Positions 3,239-39,983 of a stretch of DNA of 64,000 nt are shown here, piece after piece. Position 1 is the stretch's first letter. Each line of letters starts with the position of its first letter. Made by a program: the position numbers and the translations under genes. The notes under the pieces are model-generated. The model searched no databases, had not been told where the DNA came from, and worked only from the letters and a program-made list of their open reading frames with translations. Source of the stretch: a virus; the IMG/VR virus record IMGVR_UViG_3300033141_001125, positions 1 through 64,000 of that record; one strand, given 5' to 3'.

Positions 3239-3374
3239 TTTTTTTATTCTGCTTGCAAGATTGCTCTTTTAGTTTTGCCTTAACTTCATCAGACAAGTTT
3301 TTATCAACTCGCAATAATAAATGAGCGAGCCATTGTGTATGAGTGCGCAAGACTTTTATTTTTTGTACTTGCAT
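3228..3374 (-). CDS. Small hypothetical protein (48 aa)
   Basis: Starts at an ATG inside the 3' end of the upstream gene with GGAG eight bases before it, and ends at 3228. The product (MQVQKIKVLRTHTQWLAHLLL...) has a helical middle and a lysine-rich tail. It is shorter than most gene callers' cut-off, but the ribosome binding site and the overlaps on both sides support it. Confidence 0.5.
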   Translation of the reverse strand: MQVQKIKVLRTHTQWLAHLLLRVDKNLSDEVKAKLKEQSCKQNKKSGK

Positions 3375-3838
3375 TTGGTGAACTCCGCCACCACATCCAT
3401 ATAACCATCCTGATTCATAACCATTTCGGGAGCTTTGTCTAACAATTCATCAGGGTCATTGCCGCCTTCGACAATATGCAAATTTGCAATCTCTATTTCA
3501 TAGATTTCATCATCAATCAGTTGCAAGAGTGATAAAAGCATACCGCGCAATGGAGCTACTGGTATGACACTCTCTAGCCTGTAGGTATAATGTGAATGAT
3601 CCTCAACAGCCGGCGTATTCTCAATAACCGCTTTGAATAATTCTCTGGATAGCTCAAAATTACTTATAAACTGGAAATACTCCCCAGGCTTATTCTCAGC
3701 ACTCTTACCAGCCTCGCCAGAATAAACCACCAAAGTAATCTTGCCAACATCAATATCACCCATGACTTCAGCTTGCAGAAAAGACTTGACTAATGATTTC
3801 GGTATTCTAATTTCTAAGATCGCACAGACCGCTTCCAT
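3356..3838 (-). CDS. Hypothetical protein (160 aa)
   Basis: Well-formed gene with AAGGAAGG seven bases upstream of ATG. The protein is mixed alpha/beta and acidic (EIEIANLHIVEGGNDPDEL). No family is recognised. It lies between the phosphoesterase and portal in a run of co-directional genes. Confidence 0.6.
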   Translation of the reverse strand: MEAVCAILEIRIPKSLVKSFLQAEVMGDIDVGKITLVVYSGEAGKSAENKPGEYFQFISNFELSRELFKAVIENTPAVEDHSHYTYRLESVIPVAPLRGMLLSLLQLIDDEIYEIEIANLHIVEGGNDPDELLDKAPEMVMNQDGYMDVVAEFTKCKYKK

Positions 3839-5467: not shown

Positions 5468-6877
5468 TTAGCCCCTCCAATCAGAAATACCAGGATCGCC
5501 CCAATGAGCATTGTTCCCGTGCTGTACCATCAGGCCATAACGTGCCGAGTCATAGAAGTCATCACCGCCATTGCCATCCTCATCACAGTCAACTTTTCTA
5601 ACATCTTCTGGCCGTCTTGGATCGTGTTCCATTGAAACTATAGATTCGCGCAATCTATAACAGCGTTCGTGAACAAACCAAGTGGGCTGTATACCAGACT
5701 CAATATCGCCAAGTCGGTTAAGAATTTCTGCCGCGCCTGAAATTCTATCCATATTAGCGCGCTTGAGTGATCTTCCAAGTAATTCCTCATAATCGTCAGC
5801 CGGGCATTTTCCGTCACGATCTTTTGAGAAAACATCACCGCCAGCATAAATATCTTCTATACGCCAAAGCTCTATGCCATGGCGCTTGAGCATTTCGGTG
5901 TAAGCCCAAACATGCCTTTTTGGTATCCACTTTTGCCTAGCGTGTTCGTCAAAAGTATAAATGATTCCTTCGTGAGTCATACAATGTAAATGGATGACCG
6001 TATAGTGAGTGAACCCATAATCCATTGAGGCCCAAAAAGTCCAGGATGGATCAAGAACTAGATCGCCGCGCCATGTATGAACATCATCTTTCCAAGTTGT
6101 GAAGAATTGACCAGCCGCAATATCCCAATCGCCATAGCGATAAGCACGTAACCGCCACCCAGTGTTTTCCTCAAGTTTTTTTGTATAGCCATCATCAACA
6201 TATGGGTTATCATCCACTGTCATAGGAATAAAACGAGTATCATCCTGAGTGTCGTTTTTATAGGGATCAATAAATGACTTTTTATACCAGGCATGACCTA
6301 TGCCACCAGGATTTGTAGTGCTATAAATTCTTGGTCGCCAGCCAGGTTTTGCACTTCGATTTGAATCACGTAGTGCCCTATGCTTGACCAACGATAGGCT
6401 TGTGTGTTCCTCGATGATGATAATGTCATACTCAAGTCCCAAATAATCATCAACATCGCCTTCGTTAATAAAACCACCAACAAGGCACTTGCTGCCATTT
6501 GGAAGGTACACACAGCCCTCAGAACGGTTATATCTGTGTGGCGTATGCTTCAAAACTGACTTGCGCAAATTCTCAAATTGTTCACGCGCCTTTTTACCGA
6601 CACGTCGTAGATACAAAATTGTTAGACCAGGAAAACGCCAGGCATCATCTAATAATGCTTGAGCAAAAACCAGATGGGATTTGCCGCCACCACGCGCACC
6701 GCCAGCACCTATCTGTGTTGGCCCATCTTCATTATCAGCCCAACGACAAGCCGCATGAAATTCCCACGCCTTTGATGATGCAATGTATCTTTGTTTTATG
6801 AAGTTCTCAAATTGGCCCTTCGGAGAGCCACTTTTGATAGCTGCATCAAGAACATTACTTATTGTTGCCATCGCCAT
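5468..6877 (-). CDS. terL: Terminase large subunit
   Basis: The 469-residue packaging motor with an N-terminal ATPase and a C-terminal nuclease. Walker A is GGARGGGKS at residues 59-67, Walker B with catalytic glutamates is DIIIIEEHT, and the coupling motif is STTNPGG. The RNase H-like nuclease shows acidic residues at MDYGF, AGGDVF and DDFYDSARYG. It would dock on the portal, pump DNA into the prohead and cut it. It overlaps the small subunit gene by 23 bases and is followed by small genes, then the portal. Confidence 0.93.
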   Translation of the reverse strand: MAMATISNVLDAAIKSGSPKGQFENFIKQRYIASSKAWEFHAACRWADNEDGPTQIGAGGARGGGKSHLVFAQALLDDAWRFPGLTILYLRRVGKKAREQFENLRKSVLKHTPHRYNRSEGCVYLPNGSKCLVGGFINEGDVDDYLGLEYDIIIIEEHTSLSLVKHRALRDSNRSAKPGWRPRIYSTTNPGGIGHAWYKKSFIDPYKNDTQDDTRFIPMTVDDNPYVDDGYTKKLEENTGWRLRAYRYGDWDIAAGQFFTTWKDDVHTWRGDLVLDPSWTFWASMDYGFTHYTVIHLHCMTHEGIIYTFDEHARQKWIPKRHVWAYTEMLKRHGIELWRIEDIYAGGDVFSKDRDGKCPADDYEELLGRSLKRANMDRISGAAEILNRLGDIESGIQPTWFVHERCYRLRESIVSMEHDPRRPEDVRKVDCDEDGNGGDDFYDSARYGLMVQHGNNAHWGDPGISDWRG

Positions 6878-7460
6878 ACGCCTTATCTATGAGTGATTGT
6901 AAATTACTATCAATCTCTATTGCCCCGCCGCCCGAACCCGTGATCTCGTTTCTAATTGGAGCATCAAGGCCCATTAGTTTGCGCCTTGCGCCGCTGCAAT
7001 CCATCAGGCATTGCTTTAACCACTCAGCATCACCTTGCAAAAACTCAAGCTGAGTTGTTTGTCCAGTTGGCGCTGGCACCACTTCATCGGTTTGCGAATC
7101 AAGAATATATGAGAATACAGTTGTTATGCTTCTACGTTGCTTCTTTGGAATAGTTCTACCCAAGAATTTAGCTTTTTCTTCTGTCGCGCTTCCAAAGAAC
7201 ACCTCATAACAAAATGCTTGAATTGTATTTATTTCCCTTAACTCTTGAGTGCGCATCAAGTCAAAGTCAACAAGGGAGGATCGTTTCCAATCCTCCCTTA
7301 GACTCTTAATGTCATTCTCGATGGTTGAGACTGACAGATCGTAAACGCGATTAGCACAAAGCTTTTTGCGTATTTCTTTTGCAGTCCATTCTGGATGTAA
7401 TGACATGAGATTTGCAACAAAAGCCCTGTCCTGCTCGCGCTGATCGTTGGTTCTACGCAT
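6855..7460 (-). CDS. terS: Putative terminase small subunit (HTH protein)
   Basis: A 201-residue protein overlapping the large terminase start. Residues 10-60 resemble a helix-turn-helix (NLMSLHPEWTAKEIRKKL, then SVSTIENDIKSL), followed by a helical middle and a C-terminal tail ending NLQSLIDKAYGDGNNK. Small terminases recognise the packaging site through an N-terminal HTH and form rings with the middle helices. Position and layout support the call, but sequence signatures of this family are weak. Confidence 0.7.
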   Translation of the reverse strand: MRRTNDQREQDRAFVANLMSLHPEWTAKEIRKKLCANRVYDLSVSTIENDIKSLREDWKRSSLVDFDLMRTQELREINTIQAFCYEVFFGSATEEKAKFLGRTIPKKQRRSITTVFSYILDSQTDEVVPAPTGQTTQLEFLQGDAEWLKQCLMDCSGARRKLMGLDAPIRNEITGSGGGAIEIDSNLQSLIDKAYGDGNNK

Positions 7461-7464
7461 TTAG

Positions 7465-7584
7465 TTAACTCCGTTTAAACAAGCCGCCGATCCATTTACC
7501 AACAGCTTTAACAGTTCTCTTTACGCGTCCGCCAGCGCCACTTGCAGCACCCCCACTTCTACCCCTACTTCCAAATCCAGCCAT
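7465..7584 (-). CDS. 39-residue cationic glycine-rich peptide
   Basis: A short ORF with one of the strongest ribosome binding sites in the window (AAGGAGGTGA six bases before ATG). The N-terminal half is small and flexible (MAGFGSRGRSGGAASGAGG); the C-terminal half is a cationic amphipathic-looking segment (RVKRTVKAVGKWIGGLFKRS) with no acidic residue anywhere. It lies between the radical SAM gene and the small terminase. The composition recalls membrane-active or nucleic-acid-binding peptides. No homologue is recognised and it is too short for usual gene callers. Confidence 0.6.
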   Translation of the reverse strand: MAGFGSRGRSGGAASGAGGRVKRTVKAVGKWIGGLFKRS

Positions 7585-7613
7585 GTTTCTCACCTCCTTT
7601 TTATTATCAAAAC

Positions 7614-8849
7614 TTACTCAAAAACCTCATCGTTCATTGCATCAAAATAATGTTCATCGCTTCCCCACGGAATAAATACCATATATGGCAATTCATATGT
7701 TGGATCAAGTGTAACACCAAGCTCGCCGTCATCATCTGTATAACCCGTCCAAGAAAAAACCCGCATGCTTGTAAGTCCCCATTTAATCAAGCCGCTGTCA
7801 TATCCAACTGCAAGAATCTGTTTATAATTCAATTTACCAGCAGGGAGCTTGTACTTTTTGCGCAATGCAAAACTGCCTGTAAAAACATAATCTCTCATTC
7901 CTGTATAATTGCCATCAGGCAAGCGATACATCATAAAATCTAAGTAGTCTTGTACAGTAAACGGTGAATCAGGATTGTATTTTTCATCACGGCAGAAATT
8001 CACTAATCCTTGATTTGTTGGAAAACACTTATCATAGGTATCATAATACGGCTTGAAAAAATCACTATGTCCCTCAAATCCTGGCTGAAAAACTTCTAAT
8101 CCATACTCTTGAGCTAAATTTATTGCACGTAGCACAGACATGCGATCTGCTCCACGTAACAAACTCTTCCCCCTTGACTTTGCGCGTGTAATAAGATCAT
8201 CACCAAGTGTCTCAACTTCACGCACGGTCATTCTTTGTACCTGCTGGCTTGACAAGTGCATTTGATCAATCCATACACCAGACACGCCAACTTGAGCAAA
8301 TAATTCAATCAATGGTTCTGGATCGGGCAACCACTCAGAAACAAGCGGATTGATTGCCGCCACAACTTTATGACCCATGTCAGTCAGTGTTTTAACTGTT
8401 GCCAATCGTTCTAACGGAGGTGGCGCGCCAGGAGAAATTTTCTTTGCTATAAATTCATCTAGCATTTCGATGGTAATATACCATACTGCCGATTTCAAAA
8501 AGTCCAGCGCATCTAACATGCCTGGCCCGGTCTTTGTCTCAAAAGACAACGGGATACCCAAATCTGTCATTGTTTTAATCAACGGCAATGTATATTGATA
8601 GGTTGACTTTGCAAATGGGTCACAGCGGTTTGATAACACAACCGGATAGCCCTCTTTTAGCAATTCAGCAGTTAAAGTTGTGCGATTCTGATAATCCGCT
8701 AATAGGTTCATGGCTTTGGAAAGTTCAATCTTTCCATTTCTTTGGTTGAGCTTTGCAAAACAATATACGCAGCCGTGCGAACAAGAACCATAAGAAAATT
8801 CAAGCGGCACTGGAAAATGCAAAAACTCTCCATAATAAGGTACAATCAT
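7614..8849 (-). CDS. Radical SAM enzyme (spore photoproduct lyase-like)
   Basis: A 411-residue protein with the 4Fe-4S cluster motif C-x3-C-x2-C at C23, C27 and C30 (GSCSHGCVYC), the signature of radical SAM enzymes that cleave S-adenosylmethionine to a 5'-deoxyadenosyl radical. The following barrel part has SNRCDPF, FETKTG and ITIEMLDE strands similar to the SplB group. It starts exactly where the upstream ParB-like gene ends (ATGA-type overlap), so the two are probably co-translated. Substrate unknown; DNA or nucleotide modification or repair is plausible given the neighbours. Confidence 0.85.
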   Translation of the reverse strand: MIVPYYGEFLHFPVPLEFSYGSCSHGCVYCFAKLNQRNGKIELSKAMNLLADYQNRTTLTAELLKEGYPVVLSNRCDPFAKSTYQYTLPLIKTMTDLGIPLSFETKTGPGMLDALDFLKSAVWYITIEMLDEFIAKKISPGAPPPLERLATVKTLTDMGHKVVAAINPLVSEWLPDPEPLIELFAQVGVSGVWIDQMHLSSQQVQRMTVREVETLGDDLITRAKSRGKSLLRGADRMSVLRAINLAQEYGLEVFQPGFEGHSDFFKPYYDTYDKCFPTNQGLVNFCRDEKYNPDSPFTVQDYLDFMMYRLPDGNYTGMRDYVFTGSFALRKKYKLPAGKLNYKQILAVGYDSGLIKWGLTSMRVFSWTGYTDDDGELGVTLDPTYELPYMVFIPWGSDEHYFDAMNDEVFE

Positions 8850-13907: not shown

Positions 13908-14609
13908 CTAGAAGATCATGGCCCCACCTGTATAGGCTTGCGGCGCTGCCATAAGCACCTTGTTGCTCCCATCGTAATTTTGGCCGATGGTGCAATACGG
14001 AGAATTTTCACTTGTCGGCATAGCATGCCTCAATACTTCTTGTGCTGTTTTATAATCAAACACATAAAGATGATGACGTTTTGACAGCTTTTTGATTTCT
14101 GGCTGTGATAGCTCTACAATCTCAAGATGGCTATATACAGCGTCAGATTCTTCTAGGGCTGTGTCATCGTCATAATACTCAAGAATCTCAGGATTAAGGC
14201 CGGATGCTTTATACATCACCTGGACAGCGAATGCTTTTCCAAGCTCAACACACTCTAAAACCTTTGCTATTTCATCATTTGACTTTGCAAAAGCCCTGGA
14301 AAACTCTCTGAAAAGTTTCTTGCCAGGAAGATCGTCCAAGTCAAAAAATCCAATGATTTGGCTTTGTTTCTCTGTATCTAAACCGATCATCCCCTTTGCA
14401 ATGTACAATGGCAAAACACCATCAGCAATCAAATGTTGCACGTCATCAGTGAGTTGCAACAATTTAACTCTGCTGCTTACCAATTTTGCCGTCATATTTA
14501 ATTGCCGTGCAAGTTCTGCATAGCTAATTCCTTGATCATCAATGCACTTTTTGAGTGCATTTGCCTGCTCAATCTGATTCATATTTTTCATATCTAATTG
14601 TGACATCAT
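13908..14609 (-). CDS. ParB-type helix-turn-helix protein
   Basis: Start chosen at the ATG after AAAGGAGTTATT. Residues about 10-70 match the ParB/KorB central HTH: NQIEQANALKKCID, ISYAELARQLNMTAKLVSSRVKLL, and DDVQHLIADGVLPLYIAKGM. The usual N-terminal ParB CTPase/nuclease part is absent. The C-terminal half is acidic and unrelated to known dimer domains. It could bind a partition or regulatory site, or control the early genes. It has its own leader hairpins and terminator. Confidence 0.7.
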   Translation of the reverse strand: MMSQLDMKNMNQIEQANALKKCIDDQGISYAELARQLNMTAKLVSSRVKLLQLTDDVQHLIADGVLPLYIAKGMIGLDTEKQSQIIGFFDLDDLPGKKLFREFSRAFAKSNDEIAKVLECVELGKAFAVQVMYKASGLNPEILEYYDDDTALEESDAVYSHLEIVELSQPEIKKLSKRHHLYVFDYKTAQEVLRHAMPTSENSPYCTIGQNYDGSNKVLMAAPQAYTGGAMIF

Positions 14610-14651
14610 AATAACTCCTTTGATTAGGGTTTTAAGGCTTTTGGCCTTTCG

Positions 14652-14679
14652 AGAACACATAAACCATGTTATGTGTTCT
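14652..14679 (-). promoter_or_regulatory. Leader hairpin (11-bp perfect stem)
   Basis: AGAACACATAA pairs with TTATGTGTTCT around a 6-base loop, and is followed by a smaller AGGC-CAAAA-GCCT hairpin. Both precede the ParB-HTH gene and follow the stop at 14686. No T-run, so attenuation or RNA stability is more likely than termination. Confidence 0.5.
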
Positions 14680-14685
14680 GAAATG

Positions 14686-14883
14686 TCAAAAGTTAACTTT
14701 GCCTTGTGCATCCACATACACATCAATTATTTCATCGTCTTCATAATATTTCAATGCTTCTAAAACTGATCTCTTATCAAGTTTAACGTGCATTACAAAA
14801 TTGCCTTTTACATGCACATCCCCCCATACACTACATCGACCCTTTAGAACGTTCACCAAAACAGATTTGACCATGCCCTGCAT
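14686..14883 (-). CDS. Hypothetical protein (65 aa)
   Basis: ATG with GGGGGGAT upstream. The product is beta-rich at first (KSVLVNVLKGRCSVWG) and ends with an acidic helix (LDKRSVLEALKYYEDDEIID). No family is recognised. Part of the 13.9-15.6 kb early-type operon. Confidence 0.55.
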   Translation of the reverse strand: MQGMVKSVLVNVLKGRCSVWGDVHVKGNFVMHVKLDKRSVLEALKYYEDDEIIDVYVDAQGKVNF

Positions 14884-18503: not shown

Positions 18504-20996
18504 TTAAAATTCGCTCATGTCAAATAGAGTCTTTTTGTTTGCTGCCACCTCAGCATAACGCATATTATTTACCAGGATGCGGAAATAAGATTTCTTCAAT
18601 TCTCCAAGTAATGCCTTGCGTCCTTCCTGCAAAGCTACGTAACCAGTCGAACCAATTCCGCCAAAGGGATCGTAAACGATCTCACCGGGATTTGAATACA
18701 GAATGATAGCACGTCGGATAACCTCAAGTTGTAATGGACAAATGTGCTTTTCATCAAGCTTCCCATTCGCTTGTCTTTTCCCAAGCGTTCCTGTGATCTT
18801 GGATGGCCCAAGAACATCAGTTTCTCGTATATCATCCCAAAATACTGATTTCTGGAAGAAATCATCAATATCTTGGCTCATCAATTCTGCTTCAATGAAA
18901 TCTGGTAATAACTCAGCGCCAGGCCGATTGTCTGTACGGCACATTTCTGCAAAACTATTCATTTGTTCTGGCGAGGCATTGGTGAAAAACTTGTCTGGCT
19001 CAATCCATTCTGAACCAGCCCATTTGATGAAATCGTCACGTGACACCTCTCCACGCACATTTGATTTTACTGGTACTTTGTTGTCATTGTGATGACCTTT
19101 TTTGAAAACGAGCAGTTGATCTGGGATAACCGTGCGGCAGCGCGCTGAGTCTTTCGGCAAGTCCGAAGTCAGACCCAAGCCAAAAATGTGAGAAGTAATA
19201 CTTTTGGCTTGCTGGTTTTTACCAATGAACACACGCCCGCCATACCAATTGAAACCACCTTTTATAAAAGCATCAATTGTTCTGCCTGAGAAATCTCGCA
19301 TACCAATGAAGCCATCCTTATTTTTCCGTGCTGGAATGTCCATAACGTGAATAACGGCATTGCGCCCTGGCATCAACACGCGATACAATTCCTTTATAAG
19401 AAAACTGAAATGCTCGAAAAATTCATCCCAATCACGGCAATTTCCAAGATCGCGTTCTGTGGGTGTGTACGTAAAAAGCTCTGCAAATGGCTCGCTCCCA
19501 TGAATTAAACCAATGCTATCAGATTTAATTCCTTTTATCGTCTCAGCTGAATCGCCAAGCATCGCTTTCCAATTCTTGCCTTCAACTATTCTTTCCTCAT
19601 ATTGATAACTGATTTGCGTCTTTTGACCATGTAACTCGTTCATTGAAAACATCCTTGAGGCTGTAATTAACTCATCAATTTGTTTATTATTTTCTCTGTC
19701 TTTGTACATAAGATTGTTCCATACATCCCGCTGCGCATCTGCTATAATTGGATAGATGAAACACTCTCTTTCTTGTCCAAAGCGGTGAACACGTGCCACA
19801 CCCTGCTTCCACTGTTCCCAGGAATCATCAATGCCCGCCCACACCTGAAATGATGCGTTCTGGAAGTTCATGCCACGCGCCCCGATTTTTGGCTTAGTGA
19901 CTAAGATGCGATATTTGCCATCCTGGAAATCCTCAAACGCTTGTACTTTTTCTTCAACAGACATTGAACCAGTTACCTCTGCTGCTTGATCGCCAAGCCG
20001 CTTTGATAATTCCTTGCTTTCATGGTTGCGCAAACACCACACAATACCTTGTTCATTAAGATGCTTTGTAGACGCAATTTCATAAGCTGCATCAATGCGC
20101 TGTTCCATTGTTCCTCTATATATAGCAGAGCGGCTTAATTCCCTTCTATCAATACCGTTTTTGTCTGACCCTGATTTGCCACCGATACCACCGGCTTTAG
20201 TCATAAACAGCATGCCTTTTGGCACATATCCAGCATCGATAAATCGTGGCGAAATATGTAACTTTGGCAAGTCAAAGCCCGTGTCATCATAGCCAAGATC
20301 GCTCGGCTTGCGCATTGACACACACCAAGAGGACATCCAGCGGTAGAAGTTCTCCCTACCAAGTTCTTTTAGTACCCACTTGTTATTTGATTTTTTACCT
20401 CTGTTGATGAAAAATTCGCTTCTCATCTCATCATGGCTTTTTATAATTCCGAGCACCGCAGCAATTGCGCCAATTTCATCTGTGCTGTTAGGCGCTTGCG
20501 TGGCTGAATATCCAGTTTTGTAAGGCGTATCTTTCCACATCTCACAAGCCAGTTTGAACGTAGCGCCCTCGCCTTTGAAAATGCTACTTTCATCAAAGCC
20601 AACACCCGAAAATTGATCGGGATTGAAATGCGGCATCATTTCATAATTAGTAATGTTGATACCGTTAATGATTCCGCTACCATCTCTGGAATGATTGATT
20701 TCAATACCCATAAGATCACGCGCCATTTTAACAGTCTGCCTTACGACTGAAAGAGGAACAATTAAGACAACTGGCGTATTAGTCATTTTATTGACCCAAT
20801 ACGCCCATTCTATCTGTGTGGGAGTCTTTCCTAGCCCAGTATCCGAAGCGTCTAATGCGCGTCCTTTGCGGAGCAGAAAAGTTACCTTATCTTTTTGATC
20901 TGGACGTAGTACAGGATTTAGTGATTCCTGTAAAACTTCAAATCCCGCATCCAGTACACGAAATTCTTTTGATTGTAAAAATTCAGTGTATTTCAT
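18504..20996 (-). CDS. SNF2-type helicase fused to a DNA methyltransferase (beta class)
   Basis: An 830-residue fusion. The N-terminal half is a superfamily 2 ATPase: Walker A DTGLGKTPTQIEW (about 52-64), a DEAH-like VGFDES, GYSATQAPN, and a C-terminal VTKPKIGARGMNFQ with VARVHRFGQ (motif VI). The C-terminal half is a methyltransferase with the catalytic region first (HGSEPFAELFTYTPTERDLGN, about 505-525) and the SAM-binding YDPFGGIGSTG near residue 785. Related phage fusions read S-P-P-F at the catalytic motif; here it is S-E-P-F, so activity may be altered. Likely protects phage DNA against restriction or modifies it during replication. Confidence 0.85.
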   Translation of the reverse strand: MKYTEFLQSKEFRVLDAGFEVLQESLNPVLRPDQKDKVTFLLRKGRALDASDTGLGKTPTQIEWAYWVNKMTNTPVVLIVPLSVVRQTVKMARDLMGIEINHSRDGSGIINGINITNYEMMPHFNPDQFSGVGFDESSIFKGEGATFKLACEMWKDTPYKTGYSATQAPNSTDEIGAIAAVLGIIKSHDEMRSEFFINRGKKSNNKWVLKELGRENFYRWMSSWCVSMRKPSDLGYDDTGFDLPKLHISPRFIDAGYVPKGMLFMTKAGGIGGKSGSDKNGIDRRELSRSAIYRGTMEQRIDAAYEIASTKHLNEQGIVWCLRNHESKELSKRLGDQAAEVTGSMSVEEKVQAFEDFQDGKYRILVTKPKIGARGMNFQNASFQVWAGIDDSWEQWKQGVARVHRFGQERECFIYPIIADAQRDVWNNLMYKDRENNKQIDELITASRMFSMNELHGQKTQISYQYEERIVEGKNWKAMLGDSAETIKGIKSDSIGLIHGSEPFAELFTYTPTERDLGNCRDWDEFFEHFSFLIKELYRVLMPGRNAVIHVMDIPARKNKDGFIGMRDFSGRTIDAFIKGGFNWYGGRVFIGKNQQAKSITSHIFGLGLTSDLPKDSARCRTVIPDQLLVFKKGHHNDNKVPVKSNVRGEVSRDDFIKWAGSEWIEPDKFFTNASPEQMNSFAEMCRTDNRPGAELLPDFIEAELMSQDIDDFFQKSVFWDDIRETDVLGPSKITGTLGKRQANGKLDEKHICPLQLEVIRRAIILYSNPGEIVYDPFGGIGSTGYVALQEGRKALLGELKKSYFRILVNNMRYAEVAANKKTLFDMSEF

Positions 20997-22053: not shown

Positions 22054-23739
22054 CTAAAACCCGTATTCTATCCTTTCGTTAATCGGTTTAAGTGACACCC
22101 CAAGCCAGAAAGCATTGCCGCTTTTTGCTCTTATGCCAATGAATCCAAGCCTGCGCCATTCATTAGCCATTCTGTGTATGCTTTCCGGTCTGTAATTGCG
22201 TTCACTGCACCAATCTTTATAATGTGCGTACATAATATCAGACTGCAATCTTTTTGTAGTGTCAACCTTAAAATCGCTGTCATCTAAATGTACGTTACAC
22301 CATTCGTTGACAAATAGCGCTGCTTTATCCGAGATAATCGACCACATTTTAGTGGAAACGCGCACCGCTGCTGGCAATTCAAAATGACCTCGGCTATCTA
22401 GTCGTTTTAATCCCTCGATAGCCCAATTGAGAATTCCAGCCCTTTCTTTTCTGATACGCCCCTTCAAAGATACATCTTCTTTAACGCGCAATGGCGGAAA
22501 TTGCACAACCTTAATACGTCTAAAGAGACCATCACCACCACCACCACCCACACGCGGAAGGCGCTCCATTGCCCATAAAATCTTGGCTACTGGTCTAAAT
22601 GTTATTTGATCTTTATGTTTCCTTTCAAAGTCAACTGGCTCACCGGATATAATCGTCTTAATTATTTCAGTGCTTTGAATGTAATCCGCTGATTCCGTTG
22701 CCAGTAATAGCGTTTTTCCTGGCACGTTGACTAAAGCGAAGCGCGGATTTGTTATTAGTCTTTCTAAAGACAACACGCCGGCCTTAACTCCTAGCATCGC
22801 TCTGATTCCCTCAATAATGGTTGACTTTCCGCTTCCGGGCTGGCCGTAAAACCATACAGCAGTCTCTAGCTCCGTGCGAGTAGTCAGACAATAACCAGCA
22901 AACTCTTGTACAAACTCTACGCTATTTTGAATAGTATCGTTCAGTGCTTGTGTAAAATTGTCACATTTTGCCGTGGGATCATAGTCATATCCGAGTCCGG
23001 TTGTGGCATAATGCTCTTTGTTGTGTGGCTCGATTTGCATTGTTTTGAGATTTAGCACACCGTTACTACAAATTAACACGCCCGCATCTTGTCTATCCCA
23101 CCAATCGGCGGGTGTAAATAGCTTGCGTCTTGCCAGTGCCGATACACTTTTAACGTGTGAATCCGTGCAAGACGGCCCATATTCCTCACATTTTTCAAGG
23201 ATATTCATTATTTCACGTTCAACAATATCATCTGTGACAATAGGCCAAAAGCCATGCTCATAACGCCGCCAATAACCAAGCCCGTAGAGTGTATCTGGAT
23301 GATTGTCTATCCACATGTCTCTTATATTTGGCTCAGTTAGTTGCTCATTACCGTTGCCCTCTTGCGTCTGCTGAGCTTCTTTAAGAATGCGATTAAATTC
23401 ACGCTTGCCAAAGTTGAACATTCTTTGACAAATGTCTTGAAGCCGTCGCGCTGCAAAAGGCTCTTTGATTTGCGTGAGTAGTTGAAATATTTCTTTTAAT
23501 CCCTCGTCTCGTTCTTGGCCTTGCAAAAGAGCAACTTCGTTTATTCTAAGCTCAATATAACTTTTTGCTCTTTTAACAACACGCTCAAATTGATCTTGCG
23601 TGCCACCTTGTATAAGCCAGTCGTTAACGTCGCTTACATGCGCAGGAAGTTTAACAATTTTTAACAATGGGCCTTGTTTACTTACTATTTGTTTTATGTT
23701 AGTTTTGCCGTCGGTATCGGGTATGAGATAGAATGTCAT
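22054..23739 (-). CDS. D5/P4-type replicative helicase, carrying the second half of a split TOPRIM domain
   Basis: Start at MTFYLIPDTDGKTN (AGAGGAATAAA upstream; ATGA overlap with the methyltransferase gene). Residues 1-50 are the second half of a TOPRIM fold: the DxD acidic pair is D8/D10, and VNDWL marks its end. Next come a helical linker, the D5 N-terminal region, a superfamily 3 helicase with Walker A GQPGSGKST near 299-307 and GGGGGDGLFRRIKVVQFP, and a C-terminal winged helix (YAHYKDWCSERNYRP). The missing first half of TOPRIM is at the end of the gene at 24.6 kb, on the other side of the methyltransferase gene. Confidence 0.88.
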   Translation of the reverse strand: MTFYLIPDTDGKTNIKQIVSKQGPLLKIVKLPAHVSDVNDWLIQGGTQDQFERVVKRAKSYIELRINEVALLQGQERDEGLKEIFQLLTQIKEPFAARRLQDICQRMFNFGKREFNRILKEAQQTQEGNGNEQLTEPNIRDMWIDNHPDTLYGLGYWRRYEHGFWPIVTDDIVEREIMNILEKCEEYGPSCTDSHVKSVSALARRKLFTPADWWDRQDAGVLICSNGVLNLKTMQIEPHNKEHYATTGLGYDYDPTAKCDNFTQALNDTIQNSVEFVQEFAGYCLTTRTELETAVWFYGQPGSGKSTIIEGIRAMLGVKAGVLSLERLITNPRFALVNVPGKTLLLATESADYIQSTEIIKTIISGEPVDFERKHKDQITFRPVAKILWAMERLPRVGGGGGDGLFRRIKVVQFPPLRVKEDVSLKGRIRKERAGILNWAIEGLKRLDSRGHFELPAAVRVSTKMWSIISDKAALFVNEWCNVHLDDSDFKVDTTKRLQSDIMYAHYKDWCSERNYRPESIHRMANEWRRLGFIGIRAKSGNAFWLGVSLKPINERIEYGF

Positions 23740-24608
23740 TTTATTCCTCTGAGAATGTGTGCAATTATATCTACTGTCCAAGCGTTTCCAAGCATCTTGT
23801 AACGCTGCGTCCTTGACATCATTCTGTTTATTCGTGTTGGATGCCGAACTAATGTATAATTATCTGGAATTGTTTGCAGCCTTTCACACTCAATTGGATG
23901 AATGTATCTTGTTTTACCATTATCGTTTATTCCAAAGCATCGCTGATTGCTATATCCTTTATAATGCGAAGCCTCTAAAGTCTGCATTTTAACATTTGTA
24001 TCTTTTGAGTACTCGAAGTATTTTGTTGCGCGCCGTGCATCATGGAATATCCAATCAAATGACTTTTTTGTATAATAGAAAACACCATCCGCATTATCAA
24101 TTTGTATATCGCTCCAAAATGCTTTTGTATCTATCGGTTGCATAATATTAAGCATATTTGTCCAGTACAGCCTTTTTCTATTTTGCGCAGATACCAATGC
24201 GCTGTTAATCACAATCGGTTGTACATCAAGTATTTTTGATATAATGTCTTGATACCTTTGAGACATACGCACGTTTTCTAATAAGAAATGCTGTGGTTGA
24301 CAGTATTTAAGTATATCCGCAAAATCGAAAAATAGCTTACTGCGTGGATCATCAAAATTAAGCCTTTTACCAGCGCAACTGAATCCCTGACACGGACTAC
24401 CGCCCATCAATAAGTCAATCGGTGGCAAGTTCCAATTTTGCCAATTGGTTATATCACCAAGCTGAATTGTATTTGGATAATGATGCTGCGTTACAGCTAA
24501 TGTGTATTTATCAATTTCACTTGCAAAATAATTATCATATTTGATACCAGCGCGTTGTAATGCTAATTGACCACAACTGATACCGTCAAACAAACTTAAC
24601 ACATTCAT
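23736..24608 (-). CDS. dcm: DNA (cytosine-5-)-methyltransferase
   Basis: About 290 residues from MNVLSLFDGISCGQ. C5-methyltransferase motifs appear in order: I (SLFDGISCG), IV with catalytic cysteine (GSPCQGFSCAG), VI (FLLENVR), VIII (SAQNRKRLYW) and X (MLGNAWTVDIIAHIL). The target-recognition part lies between VIII and IX and is short. It probably protects phage DNA from host restriction. It is inserted exactly between the two halves of the primase-helicase gene and overlaps both by ATGA-type junctions. Confidence 0.92.
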   Translation of the reverse strand: MNVLSLFDGISCGQLALQRAGIKYDNYFASEIDKYTLAVTQHHYPNTIQLGDITNWQNWNLPPIDLLMGGSPCQGFSCAGKRLNFDDPRSKLFFDFADILKYCQPQHFLLENVRMSQRYQDIISKILDVQPIVINSALVSAQNRKRLYWTNMLNIMQPIDTKAFWSDIQIDNADGVFYYTKKSFDWIFHDARRATKYFEYSKDTNVKMQTLEASHYKGYSNQRCFGINDNGKTRYIHPIECERLQTIPDNYTLVRHPTRINRMMSRTQRYKMLGNAWTVDIIAHILRGIK

Positions 24609-25408
24609 TTGATGGCTTCCTTGAGTGATGCTCCGCACTCCCCGATTGCTGCCCTATCCCATTGCCCCAAAGAAATAGCATCTGCTTGTCCTTCAACAAT
24701 ATAAAATTCTTTTGCCTTTGGGTGATACAACCAATTATAATAAAGTTGCTTTTTACCAGGTAGATTGCGATGTGTTTTTCCTTCAATACTTCTTGCTGCA
24801 AAATATTGCACGCGCACACCTTTAATGTGAGGATAAACTAAATAGCCCTGCGGAGATAGTTTGTAACCATCACGCAACGAGCAGAAGTCAAGCCCGCTTG
24901 ATGAAATAACACCTTTTGCAGAAACACCGGCTTTGAGTAAGCGCTTTCTCAACTCTTGATCTGATGCAGCAAAACCAAGCCTAGCGCGCTTGATAGTTGT
25001 GTCAAGCCAGCCTCTTGACCTGGCATATTCAAGGCATATTTTACCCTCATCACTCCATAGCCGCCTCTCATAAAAAGAGGCAACAACTTCAAGAGCATTT
25101 TCTCTTATTCGTTGTTGCTGTAATTGTTTTTTGTTCTTTCTGGATGTCTGCAAGCCAGCTCGCAAAGCAAGCTCGTCTAATGCCGTAAGAAAGTCAACTT
25201 TTTGATAGTGTTGCCACACGTCAAAAATGTCAAACTGCTTGCAGCATACAAAACAATATGCGCCGTCCGCATATATTGCCATTGAAGCATTATGATCATC
25301 GTGATCAAAGCACGTGGTTGCCTTTCCTAGCTGTAAACTTTCACCTTTTAATTCTGAAAACAGATCAATAAAAGACATTCTCGATTTTATATCATCGGTA
25401 AGTGGCAT
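24605..25408 (-). CDS. DNA primase, N-terminal part (CHC2 zinc finger, first half of TOPRIM)
   Basis: A 267-residue protein. CHC2 zinc ligands are C33, H36, C52 and C55 (TTCFDHDDHN ... YCFVCC). A helical RNA-polymerase-like middle leads to YLVYPHIKGVRVQYFAARS and the first TOPRIM motif FYIVEGQADAISL near the end (E about 237). The protein stops at ASLKEAIK. In an intact primase this would run straight into the FYLIPDTDG segment that now begins the helicase ORF. The two products probably assemble, since the junctions are clean and neither frame is decayed. Confidence 0.88.
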   Translation of the reverse strand: MPLTDDIKSRMSFIDLFSELKGESLQLGKATTCFDHDDHNASMAIYADGAYCFVCCKQFDIFDVWQHYQKVDFLTALDELALRAGLQTSRKNKKQLQQQRIRENALEVVASFYERRLWSDEGKICLEYARSRGWLDTTIKRARLGFAASDQELRKRLLKAGVSAKGVISSSGLDFCSLRDGYKLSPQGYLVYPHIKGVRVQYFAARSIEGKTHRNLPGKKQLYYNWLYHPKAKEFYIVEGQADAISLGQWDRAAIGECGASLKEAIK

Positions 25409-34859: not shown

Positions 34860-35205
34860 ATTTAGGAAAGACACAAGCAATAGTTTAATTTGCGCATCAG
34901 CGGTTTTTGAGTTACGTACTTATGGCAGCATGGGCATAGAATACAAAGAAATGCGTGTGCGCTGGCATCCAGATATTGGAATTGCTATTGATGAAAGAGA
35001 CGATGACAATTTTAAGTGCATCAAGAATCATGCGGAGCCAAAAGATGTTGAAGATATACTCCCAAAGAAAAATGATTTCGGATATGACTGGACATACGCA
35101 AACTTTGTATTAGCAATGACATTTTTTGGAGAAGGCTATAAATTGGGCAATGAAATCGGTTATCGCCGCGGATTAAAACAAGGGAGATTGCAATGCAACA
35201 GGTAA
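34846..35205 (+). CDS. Hypothetical protein (119 aa)
   Basis: Start at MWGIEFRKDTSN with GAGGAGG upstream. Mixed alpha/beta, with MRVRWHPDIGIAIDERDD and a glycine-rich GEGYKLGNEIGYRRG end. Ends inside the start of the actin-like gene. No family is recognised. Confidence 0.55.
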   Translation: MWGIEFRKDTSNSLICASAVFELRTYGSMGIEYKEMRVRWHPDIGIAIDERDDDNFKCIKNHAEPKDVEDILPKKNDFGYDWTYANFVLAMTFFGEGYKLGNEIGYRRGLKQGRLQCNR

Positions 35206-36221
35206 CATTTAACAGTGTATGCGCACAAGGAACGATTAAGAACGGCCTCAGTCTAGGCCAATACTCAAGAGGCCGTCACACACAACATCCGCACCAAATA
35301 AATTGGGGAATTGGTAATTGGATGGTTGGAAACGGCGTAGAGCATTACGCCAATGTTATCCAGCGGCAGGACTTCAATCGCCTGTCAGAAGGCAATGAGG
35401 CAATTGCCTTGTATTATACCGCGCTTGGTCTTTTGCTTGGGCCTGGCTATCACGATATTCGAGGATTGACTCTCGGCTTGCCAGTTGACATATATACAGA
35501 TGACGAAAAAGCAAAACGCACAATGCGCAATGTTGGAAAATTCCTGAGAGGCGAACATTCATTTATGCTTGACGGTGAAGAAATTACCATAAATGTTCAG
35601 AGTATCGCCAAGTGCCCTCAGCCAGTCGGAGCTTACACCACATTTCTATACCAGCAACGACAATTTCCAGACGGCCAAATGTGGGCCGTCGCTGATGGTG
35701 GATTCAACACGCTGGATGTGTTTGCAGTTGCGTATATCGCAGGTCATCCACGAGTGTATCATAAATACACCGCTGGAACTAACCTGGGTATGGCTGAGGC
35801 TTGCCGTCATTTTATGCAATCGTTCAAACAATTAACAAGCAGGGACATTACTTTACAGCAAGCTGATATGTACCTGCGTGAAAAGAAGCCAGAAGTAACA
35901 TATATTGATCACGGCACATTTGATCTTACATCAATAAAAAATGTTGCATTAGAATCACTTTCCAGTCGTGTGATTACTTTTTTGCGTAATCAGTGGGGCG
36001 AACCATTGCCTTTTGCAGGACTGATTTTTGCTGGTGGAGAATTTGAGGCACTGGGTCAGCACGTTGTGACCAAATATCCAGGTGCATTTGTGTTGGATGA
36101 TCCAGTTATGGCAATTGCTACAGGGCTGTATTATCAATCTACGATGGTTAAATCATGGAAGGGTGGCTTGGTTGTTGGCCTTGATCCTGGGTTTGGAGCA
36201 ATCAAGGCCGTCACAGAATGA
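35193..36221 (+). CDS. Actin-like ATPase (ParM/Alp type), circularly permuted
   Basis: A 342-residue actin-fold ATPase. In order it shows GLPVDIYTDDEKAKRT (92-110, typical of ParM/Alp N-domains), phosphate-2 ADGGFNTLDVF (167-177), adenosine motif FAGGEFEALG (279-288), then DDPVMAIATGLYYQ (the usual C-terminal end). The phosphate-1 motif, which starts every normal actin (G-D-x-G-x-x-x-T/K), is instead at the very C-terminus: GLVVGLDPGFGAIKAVTE (325-342). The N-terminus begins where a normal protein would be just after phosphate-1. It may build filaments for plasmid-like segregation or DNA positioning. GGGAG precedes ATG. Confidence 0.82.
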   Translation: MQQVTFNSVCAQGTIKNGLSLGQYSRGRHTQHPHQINWGIGNWMVGNGVEHYANVIQRQDFNRLSEGNEAIALYYTALGLLLGPGYHDIRGLTLGLPVDIYTDDEKAKRTMRNVGKFLRGEHSFMLDGEEITINVQSIAKCPQPVGAYTTFLYQQRQFPDGQMWAVADGGFNTLDVFAVAYIAGHPRVYHKYTAGTNLGMAEACRHFMQSFKQLTSRDITLQQADMYLREKKPEVTYIDHGTFDLTSIKNVALESLSSRVITFLRNQWGEPLPFAGLIFAGGEFEALGQHVVTKYPGAFVLDDPVMAIATGLYYQSTMVKSWKGGLVVGLDPGFGAIKAVTE

Positions 36222-36490
36222 AAATAAACAGCCGTGTTTTGTTTGACGTTGATCACGTGCTAGATGATCAGGTATTCAATACGTATGAACTGTTATGCCT
36301 CATCCACGACGGGCATATAAAACCAGGCTCAATCATACGTAGAAACGAGATTGAATACACTGTTATACGTTGCAATTATCAAAAATACCGTGGTGAATTC
36401 TATGCAATTTTCAGTGATACTACAAAAGAAGTTTACAGAGCACAGGAATTTCAGTTTGAGAAATTGAAATACAGACCTATAGTACTTTAG
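36218..36490 (+). CDS. Hypothetical protein downstream of the actin-like gene (90 aa)
   Basis: ATGA overlap with the actin-like gene, so likely co-translated and a candidate adaptor or partner. Mixed alpha/beta (MKINSRVLFDVDHVLDD, then GEFYAIFSDTTKEVYRAQEF). No ParR-like motif is visible. Confidence 0.55.
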   Translation: MKINSRVLFDVDHVLDDQVFNTYELLCLIHDGHIKPGSIIRRNEIEYTVIRCNYQKYRGEFYAIFSDTTKEVYRAQEFQFEKLKYRPIVL

Positions 36491-36514
36491 TCCTATATAA
36501 CATAACGTTACAGT

Positions 36515-36565
36515 TTTGTAAATACTGCAAACTCGTTGTAAATATTACAAAAACCGTGGTATAAT
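36515..36565 (+). promoter_or_regulatory. Promoter with palindromic operators
   Basis: TTGTAA (36536-36541) and TATAAT (36560-36565) with an 18-base spacer. The perfect palindrome TTGTAAATATTACAA (36536-36550) covers the -35, and a related TTTGTAAATACTGCAAA lies just upstream. Likely repressor sites. Confidence 0.7.
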
Positions 36566-36607
36566 GTTTATAGATGAGGGCAAGAGAGTGACCAGAAAAA
36601 AACAGAC

Positions 36608-36723
36608 GGGGATTCGTTAGCAGCTAATCCCCCCTCTTCAAGAGTCACACAAACCAGAACAGTGGGTAAACCATAGAGTGATAAGAAAATGCTTGTAAGT
36701 TCTAGCTTGTGTGATTCTTGAAG
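36608..36723 (+). ncRNA. Structured leader RNA of the 36.77 kb gene
   Basis: A 7-bp GGGGATT/AATCCCC hairpin (36608-36632) is followed by a long stem CTTCAAGAGTCACACAA (36636-36652) pairing 16 of 17 with 36707-36723. An inner AGAAC/GTTCT adds to the second stem. It lies between the promoter and the first small gene. Confidence 0.6.
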
Positions 36724-36765
36724 GGGTTTAACAGCCCGTAATTAGCTCAGCAGGGAGAGATTGAA

Positions 36766-36921
36766 ATGTTAAAATCACTTTGGAAGGAAATCTTTGGAAA
36801 TCTGGGGGCATTTTTTTGCTCTCGGTATTATCGACGTGAAAGCAGATTGAAACCCATCTGCAAAAAACTTGGTTGGGGTTTTTACTTTCTTCAGATGGGT
36901 TTTAAGAGGCCCACTGATTAG
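36766..36921 (+). CDS. Small basic protein (51 aa) ending in a hairpin
   Basis: GGGAGAGATTGAA precedes ATG. The product is aromatic and basic (MLKSLWKEIFGNLGAFF, then CSRYYRRESRLK). The 3' third of the gene is an 11-bp perfect hairpin AAACCCATCTG/CAGATGGGTTT (36850-36902), so the region may act as RNA as well as, or instead of, coding. Confidence 0.45.
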   Translation: MLKSLWKEIFGNLGAFFCSRYYRRESRLKPICKKLGWGFYFLQMGFKRPTD

Positions 36922-36925
36922 ATCA

Positions 36926-37032
36926 TAGTTCTCTCCTGCGCACACACTGATCGAGTGCGCGCAGGGCAGAGCGATGAACGCTCATCCGGGAATCATTCAG
37001 CCTGACCCGGCAGGTAAAAGGGAGAAATTGAG
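36926..37032 (+). ncRNA. 107-nt structured leader, copy 1
   Basis: Three hairpins in order: CCTGCGC..CA/TG..GCGCAGG, GAGCG/CGCTC, and CCGGG/CCCGG, then GGGAGAAATTGAG before ATG. Identical in 102 of 107 positions to the copy at 37271-37377. Confidence 0.75.
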
Positions 37033-37266
37033 ATGGATGAAATACGAGAATGCGCAGATGGACTTTTCACACTCAGGACAAACAGAAATTACAAGTGCAT
37101 AGCGCAGAGCGGGGAAAAATGGGTCGCGGGAACGTTCGACGAAAAACGAGGGCAATTCTGCGACGGAAGAAACTTCGCCCGCGGAATGTCAAAACGATCC
37201 CTCTTGTCCGCACACACGCGAAGATTCAGCTCGAAAACAGCAGCAATAAAATGGATGCTTGACTGA
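37033..37266 (+). CDS. Small basic hypothetical protein (77 aa), GC-rich
   Basis: First gene behind leader copy 1. The product is polar and basic (MDEIRECADGLFTLRTNRN, then a K/R-rich tail). G+C is higher than in flanking early genes. No family is recognised. Confidence 0.5.
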   Translation: MDEIRECADGLFTLRTNRNYKCIAQSGEKWVAGTFDEKRGQFCDGRNFARGMSKRSLLSAHTRRFSSKTAAIKWMLD

Positions 37267-37270
37267 TTCT

Positions 37271-37377
37271 TAGTTCTCTCCTGCGCGCACACAGTGCGAG
37301 TGCGCGCAGGGTAGAGCGATGAACGCTCATCCGGGAATCATTCAGCCTGACCCGGCAGGTAAAAGGGAGAAATTGAG
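37271..37377 (+). ncRNA. 107-nt structured leader, copy 2
   Basis: Same three-hairpin layout as copy 1. Four of the five differences lie in or at the edge of the first loop; stem 1 here is a perfect 10 bp (CCTGCGCGCA/TGCGCGCAGG). Hairpins 2 and 3 and the ribosome binding site are identical. Confidence 0.75.
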
Positions 37378-37764
37378 ATGTTAAACATCTTTTGTGCTGA
37401 CTGCGCAAGCCATATCTTTATCTCATCCGTTCCCATTGAGTGCTGCCCCGTTTGCGGTGCAGAATTCGATATCAGAGATGAAGAAAGTATACCCAGTTTT
37501 GTAGGTAGTGTCAGCGTAATCGCCACCATTAACATAAACCTCTTCACCGTCACCTGCCGCCTGCAAACGGCAGGGGGGATGATGGGGAGGCTAAGCATAG
37601 CCTCCTACGAAGACAGCTTCAGGGAATTGGCCCCTAACCGAAACGCGCTCGGCTATGCAGCCGATCGCGCACATGAGCTCTGGCATATTTTGCTCAAGCT
37701 CCAGGAGTGGACACCTGGAATAGTAATTCCAGGAGTAACATTCTCACTCCCATCAAACGAGTAA
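37378..37764 (+). CDS. Zinc-ribbon hypothetical protein (128 aa)
   Basis: Two CxxC pairs near the N-terminus (FCADCASHIF and CCPVCGAEF) form a zinc ribbon. The rest is mixed, ending FRELAPNRNALGYAADRAHEL. It is controlled by leader copy 2. No family is recognised. Confidence 0.55.
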   Translation: MLNIFCADCASHIFISSVPIECCPVCGAEFDIRDEESIPSFVGSVSVIATININLFTVTCRLQTAGGMMGRLSIASYEDSFRELAPNRNALGYAADRAHELWHILLKLQEWTPGIVIPGVTFSLPSNE

Positions 37765-37788
37765 CCCGCCCCAGTGGTGCAAGGCGGG
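37765..37788 (+). promoter_or_regulatory. Short leader hairpin
   Basis: CCCGCC/GGCGGG 6-bp stem, 12-base loop, followed by GAGGAGAAA and the ATG at 37802. A fourth structured leader in the same operon. Confidence 0.5.
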
Positions 37789-37801
37789 GAATGAGGAGAA
37801 A

Positions 37802-37996
37802 ATGAAACATTATCAAATTAAAGTCACTCCAACAATAAATGCACTGCTACGGATAACTGGCAATCGTATCATTGCCACAACGAATGAGATGTTTAGTCAG
37901 AATGAGTGCATTGTGGATTGCGAAACATTTGAACGCATTGTTGAGAATGTTTCAGTAACAGTAACAAAAGTTTTCAAAAAGGAAAGCAATATATGA
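37802..37996 (+). CDS. Hypothetical protein (64 aa)
   Basis: GAGGAG precedes ATG. Beta-rich (MKHYQIKVTPTINALLR, then a VIVTKVFKK-type end). It overlaps the HTH gene by ATGA, so the two may be partners. No family is recognised. Confidence 0.5.
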   Translation: MKHYQIKVTPTINALLRITGNRIIATTNEMFSQNECIVDCETFERIVENVSVTVTKVFKKESNI

Positions 37997-38196
37997 AAAG
38001 AACAATAAATAAATCAGTTAGACTGTCAATCCTACGCAAATTAAAACGCAAAGGACTGCTAGAAGGAAAAAGCCTACGCGATCTAGGAAAGCTATTCGGA
38101 GTACATTTCTCTCAAATTTCACGTGATATGAAAGACCTGCCAGCACTTGAAGCCGAATACAAGCGCGTGAAAAAGATGTTAAAAGAGGATGCTTAA
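37993..38196 (+). CDS. Small HTH DNA-binding protein (67 aa)
   Basis: The sequence KGLLEGKSLRDLGKLFGVHF followed by SQISRDMKDLPAL is a classical helix-turn-helix, with a basic N-terminus and a helical tail for dimerisation. It is directly followed by a terminator and a palindrome-flanked promoter, so autoregulation or control of the FtsK operon is likely. It could also be a ParR-like centromere binder for the actin-like ATPase, though that is inference. Confidence 0.7.
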   Translation: MKRTINKSVRLSILRKLKRKGLLEGKSLRDLGKLFGVHFSQISRDMKDLPALEAEYKRVKKMLKEDA

Positions 38197-38213
38197 TCGC
38201 ATTCTCTTTTTTT
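38185..38213 (+). terminator. Strong rho-independent terminator
   Basis: GAGGATGC/GCATTCTC (8 bp) followed by seven T, overlapping the stop of the HTH gene. Confidence 0.85.
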
Positions 38214-38215
38214 GC

Positions 38216-38270
38216 TTGACAAATATATCAAATTATATATACTTACAACATAACATATATCAGGATATAT
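38216..38270 (+). promoter_or_regulatory. Promoter and operator of the FtsK operon
   Basis: TTGACA (38216-38221), 16-base spacer, TATACT (38238-38243), then the palindrome ATATATC-AG-GATATAT (38255-38270) just before the gene at 38275. Probably bound by the HTH protein upstream. Confidence 0.75.
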
Positions 38271-38274
38271 AAAC

Positions 38275-38523
38275 ATGAGAGTTTATTTTGACTTAGCTAA
38301 CGATCTTGTCGATTGGTACAAATCGCAAGAGAATAAAAGAACGGCCTTGAATAATGCAATCAGAGCAGGAAAACAAGGCCAGAAAGACGAAATTATGCTT
38401 GAGCTTGCAGAAATAAAGTGCATCCTGCAAAACAAGATGATCATTTCGGCTGATGAAGAACCGCCACAAAGCGACTTCTCACTTGACGGTTTTGAGTCAA
38501 TGGCCGTCATAGACAATGACTGA
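38275..38523 (+). CDS. Hypothetical acidic protein (82 aa)
   Basis: Helical with an acidic tail (MRVYFDLANDLVDWYK, then DEEPPQSDFSLDGFES). First gene of the FtsK operon. The acidic C-terminal tail could contact a partner such as the translocase. No family is recognised. Confidence 0.55.
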   Translation: MRVYFDLANDLVDWYKSQENKRTALNNAIRAGKQGQKDEIMLELAEIKCILQNKMIISADEEPPQSDFSLDGFESMAVIDND

Positions 38524-38618
38524 CTAAAAGTATATATGTGCCCCTTGCAAAAAAGAATGCCATTTTTAACACTTTAGACATAGGCGCACTTTCAGACATA
38601 CAACACAGGAACGTGAAA

Positions 38619-39983
38619 ATGGATACAAAAGAAACCTATTTAATAGAGTTCGCTCACAATATTATTGCCAGCCTGACTGATCCTGAGATTTGCGGCAGGA
38701 AGAATATTGTTGCGCGCCCGATCAATGGCCGGCTTGCAGAAGTCACGCCGGGGCCACGCGCTGGCGCTGTCACATTACTGGATACAAATTACAGCAATCA
38801 TCTAATAGAAACTTTCAGAAAACACGATGGCTTGTTAGCTCATAAGCTTTTGCCAAACAACTGGAAGAGAAAAGTAGATCATGTTTCTGTTTATGGCTTC
38901 CGTGGCTGTGTAAGGGTCGAAGCGGCTTGGCCTAAGGCTATGCAAAAAATGGATGTTACCGTTTCGCTGAGTCGCATTGACAAAAATCCTTACAAGAATG
39001 GTAGATTTCTAATTGGTAAAAATGAGCGTGGTGCGGACATCACGCTTGGCCTAGATGACGTGACACCAAACTTTCTTTTTGCCGGTCTGACTGGAAGCGG
39101 CAAAACCTGGGCTATGCGCTCGGTGATTGGTCAATTGTCACGTTACATAGACACGCAAACAATATTGATTGACGGAAAATATGGCGATGGGCTTGGTTGT
39201 TTGAATGGTATCCGGGGACAAATAGGGCCTCTTGCTGTGGACATCGAAAACGCAAAAAACGCACTGGCTTGGGTGATCAATGAGATGCACACCAGATATA
39301 CAAAAGTAGCACATCTGACACCACAGGCCAGAAAAGCAACTTTTGATGAAATGTCACGCATTGTAGTAGTTATTGATGAAGTGCAAGAGTTCACAAACGA
39401 TCTTGCTGCCGCAGCAATGATTAGTAAGTTGGTTTCTCAGTGCCGTGGTGCAAAAATTTATTGCTTGATTGGCACACAGCATCCACGTCAAGATGCTTTT
39501 GGTGATACGAGCGCCAAGCGTAATTTAGTAGGCAGGATCGTGCTACTTGTTGAAGACGAAATCGCATCTCACGTTGCGCTTGGCTCCTGGACTCCGAAGG
39601 CACATGAGGTACTACTCGGAAAAGGGGATGCTTATGCAAAAGTGCCTGGCGCAATTCAGCGCGTCCAGACCGCTTACATTCCAGAAGATGACCTGCTTTC
39701 TTTGGTTGGTGGTCAACCGCTACTAAAAGAATGGCCGTTGTTCAATCCAGACATTCTGGGATTCTATCCTGAGAGGATGGGCCGTCCGCCAGTGCTTTTT
39801 ACTATGCAAGAATTGGCAATTTCCGCAAGGTGCGCATCATTAAATGAACGCCGCATTATACTTGATAGACACCTACAGAAACATACCGGAAAAAGTATGG
39901 GCGTTCCAAGATTGCGCAAACTCTTAGAGAAAGGTAAAGAACTTGATGCAGAGTTAGGAGTATTAAACTATGGAGGCGAATAA
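38619..39983 (+). CDS. FtsK/SpoIIIE-type DNA translocase
   Basis: Start at MDTKETYLIEFAHN with CAGGAACGTG upstream; the GTG at 38538 lacks a ribosome binding site. About 454 residues with a RecA/FtsK-like motor: Walker A AGLTGSGKTWAMRS (about 150-163), Walker B RIVVVIDEVQEF, then GTQHPRQDAFG. The protein pumps double-stranded DNA, as in plasmid transfer or chromosome segregation. No N-terminal membrane part, so it is a soluble translocase. Its neighbour is a nuclease and, upstream, a permuted actin. Confidence 0.85.
   Translation: MDTKETYLIEFAHNIIASLTDPEICGRKNIVARPINGRLAEVTPGPRAGAVTLLDTNYSNHLIETFRKHDGLLAHKLLPNNWKRKVDHVSVYGFRGCVRVEAAWPKAMQKMDVTVSLSRIDKNPYKNGRFLIGKNERGADITLGLDDVTPNFLFAGLTGSGKTWAMRSVIGQLSRYIDTQTILIDGKYGDGLGCLNGIRGQIGPLAVDIENAKNALAWVINEMHTRYTKVAHLTPQARKATFDEMSRIVVVIDEVQEFTNDLAAAAMISKLVSQCRGAKIYCLIGTQHPRQDAFGDTSAKRNLVGRIVLLVEDEIASHVALGSWTPKAHEVLLGKGDAYAKVPGAIQRVQTAYIPEDDLLSLVGGQPLLKEWPLFNPDILGFYPERMGRPPVLFTMQELAISARCASLNERRIILDRHLQKHTGKSMGVPRLRKLLEKGKELDAELGVLNYGGE

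Follow-up and report, generated by a model that had tools for sequence, protein, structure and literature searches.

An uncultured phage carries a primase-helicase gene in pieces. The break lies inside the catalytic TOPRIM domain of the primase, and an orphan C5-cytosine DNA methyltransferase gene sits between the two parts. The halves probably work together as a two-chain TOPRIM primase-helicase produced by coupled translation. The locus lies in the window, by which is meant the whole stretch of DNA analysed, the first 64,000 nucleotides of a 64,670-base virus record. The minus strand encodes the three genes in the order primase half, methyltransferase and helicase half, with the limits given in the original prediction (Table 1). 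As also described there, neighboring genes are joined by an ATGA overlap at each end of the methyltransferase. Each overlap has a good Shine-Dalgarno match upstream, 9 nt from the methyltransferase ATG (AAGGA) and 5 nt from the helicase-half ATG (AGAGGA). The primase half ends with GECGASLKEAIK before its stop codon, and the helicase half starts with MTFYLIPDTDGKTN.

Table 1. Features of the divided primase-helicase locus (window positions)
Feature	Position	Strand	Description or basis
Primase half (P0001)	24605..25408	-	267 aa; CHC2-type Zn finger, DNAG_N domain, and TOPRIM as far as helix 2
C5-cytosine DNA methyltransferase (P0002), orphan, intact	23736..24608	-	290 aa; ATG at 24608, stop at 23736
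Helicase half (P0003)	22054..23739	-	561 aa; ATG at 23739, stop at 22054; remaining TOPRIM, helical bundle, D5/SF3 helicase
Primase/methyltransferase junction	24605..24622	-	AAGGA Shine-Dalgarno, ATGA stop/start overlap (sequence)
Methyltransferase/helicase junction	23736..23750	-	AGAGGA Shine-Dalgarno, ATGA stop/start overlap (sequence)
TOPRIM part 1: strand 1 with catalytic Glu (IVEGQADA), helix 1, strand 2, start of helix 2	24608..24706	-	Glu column 69/69 uninterrupted relatives
TOPRIM part 2: strand 3 with DxD (IPDTD), strand 4, DVNDWL motif	23605..23739	-	D columns 63/69 and 60/69, DxN (its Asp) 68/69 uninterrupted relatives; alignment A8
Helical bundle between TOPRIM and helicase, common to uninterrupted relatives	23365..23604	-	Alignments
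Walker A motif GQPGSGKS, SF3/D5 helicase	22822..22845	-	Sequence, alignment

The primase half has the Zn finger and DNAG_N domain of a DnaG-type TOPRIM primase. Pfam places Zn_ribbon_DnaG (PF01807) above the cutoff and DNAG_N (PF08275) below it (E = 0.0009); conservation of the Zn ligands in the window is judged by Pfam only, the window sequence being misaligned at the Zn finger in the conservation alignment. TOPRIM strands 1 and 2 are visible in the AlphaFold prediction of this chain on its own (pLDDT 83), which Foldseek matches to the DnaG structures 2au3, 3b39, and 1dd9. The helicase half contains D5_N (PF08706) and DUF5906 (PF19263), the latter accompanied by the Walker A motif of an SF3 ATPase, and is thus a D5/SF3 helicase. 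Its single-chain prediction (pLDDT 91) includes a short strand at residues 4-5, immediately before the DxD, and Foldseek matches it to the SaPI5 primase-helicase and vaccinia D5 (7ola, 8apl). The original comparison of the pair with the P4/D5 type therefore holds for the helicase and fails for the primase half. P4/D5 primase-helicases such as those of 9NA, Sasha, SaPI5, and vaccinia (D5) share the D5_N and SF3 helicase core with the window; however, the primase portion at their N-terminus, in those where it is seen, is AEP-like rather than DnaG-type. The order of Zn finger, N-terminal RNA-polymerase subdomain, and TOPRIM is that of bacterial DnaG (2au3, 3b39, 4e2k), whereas in the window the TOPRIM is spread over two chains and the second chain runs on into an SF3 helicase.

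The TOPRIM piece at the N-terminus of the helicase half was at first unexplained because the closest phage helicases have an AEP primase or none attached. Helicase-based scans returned helicases with AEP primases, with other TOPRIM primases, or with none, and no relatives emerged when viral contigs were scanned with single proteins (P0001, P0003, and the terminase). The family came to light instead when the primase half was used as the query against whole records and genomes, which led to Anaerolineae loci (L169 and L179-L190, among others) with identity of up to 51% over part of the sequence; most have open frames of 743-1091 residues. A search with the family alignment (A4) then gave 68 phage relatives. 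In these Anaerolineae and phage-contig genes, a DnaG-type Zn/TOPRIM primase is joined to one of various helicases, and the family profile aligns through the TOPRIM with DnaG structures (E = 3e-30 to 2au3). The reading frame passes uninterrupted over the window's break point in 67 of the 68 phage genes and in about 15 Anaerolineae genes; the remaining phage gene runs off its contig. Relatives L179-L190 and L208-L275 have the same primase module as the window and, when uninterrupted, no methyltransferase inside it. In two of them (L264, L272), the same kind of primase and a D5 helicase form one ORF, a TOPRIM-D5 fusion that we infer to be the architecture of the window's ancestor.

Comparison with these genes places the break between TOPRIM strands 2 and 3. 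A family HMM built from 69 uninterrupted relatives was searched against the 1,095 ORFs of the window and matched only the primase half (E = 1.7e-65, model positions 20-306) and the helicase half (E = 9.3e-26, model positions from 312/316 to 457, residues 2-139 of P0003). Because only these two ORFs match, and on adjacent, nonoverlapping segments, their complementarity is not due to chance, and the original placement of the break within the TOPRIM is borne out. Joined in silico, the two chains score as one domain (305.6 bits). Pfam Toprim models give the joined chain no score; they miss the uninterrupted relative L208 as well. No single polypeptide carries the whole TOPRIM in the window; its catalytic Glu is on the primase half, and both aspartates of the DxD together with the DxN are on the helicase half. 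All are present, and the corresponding columns are conserved among the uninterrupted relatives (Table 1), a point on which the original prediction might have fallen. Furthermore, fused relatives without the methyltransferase, which it had proposed to look for, align across the exact break, so the observation stands.

The two pieces do not, however, add up to a complete domain. The spacing from VEG to DxD is 36 residues in the joined chain vs a mode of 42 in the relatives and 46 in the nearest (values of 28, 34, and 94-110 were left out as pattern-matching errors), and the helix-2/strand-3 loop has therefore lost approximately 6-10 residues. Likewise, the junction is 2-10 or more residues longer in the uninterrupted relatives than in the window. 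The original description of one continuous TOPRIM is thus right about complementary halves and overstated as to full continuity.

Fission has occurred repeatedly in this family. Nine further members are split later in the TOPRIM, either between strand 4 and the DxN motif or immediately beyond that motif (L229, L253, L267 and its near-copy L268, L270, L271, L273, L274, and L275). The tree implies at least five fission changes, four of them after DxD and around DxN; with at least five independent fissions, the family evidently tolerates a two-chain state. Only in the window is the Glu parted from the DxD. Six of the split genes have nothing inserted (L229, L267, L270, L271, L273, L275), and in L253 a 146-residue ORF (3364-3804) with no Pfam match lies between the primase and helicase halves. 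A parallel is seen in L274 (IMGVR_UViG_3300034257_000035, 6600-8800), in which a C5-methyltransferase (PF00145, E = 1e-25) also lies between the halves, with tightly packed starts. Unlike the window, L274 is broken after strand 4, has a methyltransferase of another subfamily (BLASTP finds no similarity between the two enzymes) and another helicase, and belongs to a clade already split without an insert. An apparent frameshift in the helicase part of one further primase-helicase ORF (L236, 7695-7797) could be a sequencing error.

The intervening gene of the window encodes an intact enzyme, as originally claimed. It matches DNA_methylase (PF00145, E = 6.4e-42) and has C5-methyltransferase motifs I, IV, VI, VIII, and IX-X (FDGISCG, GGSPCQGFS, LLENV, QNRKRLYW, LGNAWTVD). 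It is 48-58% identical to free-standing phage enzymes and similar to them in length; no endonuclease domain is present. None of its best 80 relatives has primase pieces beside it. Conversely, 11 of the 68 phage loci, L274 among them, have a C5-methyltransferase in the flanking sequence that was fetched, so a methyltransferase beside the primase gene is fairly common; in three loci, one lies close to an uninterrupted primase (L218, 8722-9876; L234, 8881-9861; L224, 3981-5849). Two cases were found with a methyltransferase between primase pieces, the window and L274. The 1,064-residue D5 primase profile PHROG 864 also matches the window methyltransferase (23736-24608), hinting at helicase-methyltransferase fusions elsewhere.

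In the reading that we favor, the ancestor would have been a DnaG-type primase, with Zn finger and TOPRIM, fused to a D5/SF3 helicase. A break in the helix-2/strand-3 loop would have cost some 6-10 codons, and the orphan methyltransferase gene now occupies the gap. To judge from the overlaps and Shine-Dalgarno sites, the three ORFs are probably translated by coupled reinitiation. Most likely, the two chains then pair and rebuild one TOPRIM site, with the Glu supplied by one chain and both Asp by the other, and the methyltransferase would act separately, probably shielding phage DNA from host restriction. That both chains are active together is probable, as the original prediction also thought, given the conserved residues in each, the absence of decay, the repeated fission in the family, and the activity of a split NrdA in phage Aeh1. 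Four points weigh against this reading: no relative has the same break, the separation of Glu from DxD is unique, 6-10 residues are missing, and the window's branch on the tree is long (1.39).

Within the two-chain reading, the order of events may be the reverse. Fission by a stop/start overlap could have come first, with the methyltransferase slipping into the junction later and not causing the break, a real possibility that we stop short of favoring. Family members split without an insert show such a state, and L274 is nested among them on the tree, so in L274 fission may have preceded the methyltransferase. However, no insert-free split is known at the window's own site, and the lost junction codons fit a single insertion-deletion event.

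The main rival to the two-chain reading is that the insertion inactivated the primase, which is dead or dying, so that the phage relies on host DnaG or another primase and only the D5 helicase half is active. The missing loop residues and the long branch are in keeping with such a loss, and the nearest helicase relatives (L117, L119, L120) have no TOPRIM. We nevertheless consider it unlikely. The original claim that neither half is decayed is supported, with both frames free of stops and frameshifts and E, D, D, and DxN conserved; moreover, the helicase half retains a 125-residue TOPRIM/bundle extension, and good ribosome sites remain at both junctions.

Three other explanations are less probable still. 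An improbable one is a functional link between C5-methyltransferases and this primase family, by which the enzyme would recur next to or within the primase gene because methylation and priming are coupled at the phage fork, with the split TOPRIM kept in a complex with the methyltransferase. An assembly chimera, with the methyltransferase placed inside the primase only in silico, is very improbable: the locus is on a single metagenome contig, no second copy was found in the scans, and the methyltransferase is more AT-rich (36% GC vs 42-43%), but both joins are precise ATGA overlaps with Shine-Dalgarno sites and a similar arrangement recurs in L274. Least credible of all is a rejoining of the halves by splicing or by long translational bypass over the methyltransferase; inteins, introns, and bypass do exist in phage replication genes, but here stop and start codons come with ribosome sites, neither half bears extra protein sequence, there is no Rfam match (in line with the original view that neither intein nor intron is visible, and an interruption by either was rejected), and we know of no precedent for a bypass of approximately 870 nt.

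In phage T4, too, the large subunit of the topoisomerase is divided within its TOPRIM region. The original prediction knew of no standard explanation for the locus; in fact, T4-like phages offer precedents in which an inserted free-standing gene, there for a homing endonuclease, leaves another gene in pieces, including mobE in nrdA of phage Aeh1, where the split NrdA was shown to be functional, and mobA in topoisomerase gene 60-39 of T4 (PMC2988022). A related insertional fission has been reported for mitochondrial cox2 (PMC5374615). As in the two phage cases, a free-standing gene parts an essential replication gene in a critical region, leaving complementary ORFs that have uninterrupted relatives. 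Unlike those cases, what intervenes here is the gene of an orphan C5-methyltransferase that has no endonuclease domain, and the gene divided is a primase-helicase. A methyltransferase splitting a primase within its catalytic domain was not found in the open-licence literature searched. Other copies broken at the window's site, between strands 2 and 3, were likewise seen in no relative, and added order- and phylum-wide searches found no other split copy.

If the two chains cooperate, a TOPRIM site can form between separate primase proteins, with Glu on one and DxD on the other, and fission of a phage replication-enzyme gene needs no homing endonuclease. The family also offers a natural series of uninterrupted genes, genes split without an insert, and genes split with a methyltransferase, at several positions in one domain, and thereby allows direct tests of how split enzymes evolve.

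Other genes of the window were noted in passing. At 18504-20996, a single ORF encodes a fusion of a helicase (Helicase_C) with an N6/N4 DNA methylase and has relatives on four phage contigs; the SNF2-methylase relatives L010-L013 lack the primase. One contig (L022, 2482-7091) shares the window's gene order for related VWA, DnaJ-like, and helicase genes, and its downstream primase is AEP-type, not DnaG-type. An actin-like protein and an FtsK-like ATPase are encoded on the opposite strand (35193-39983), and these, together with a ParB-like gene (13908-14726), possibly serve plasmid-like partition functions.
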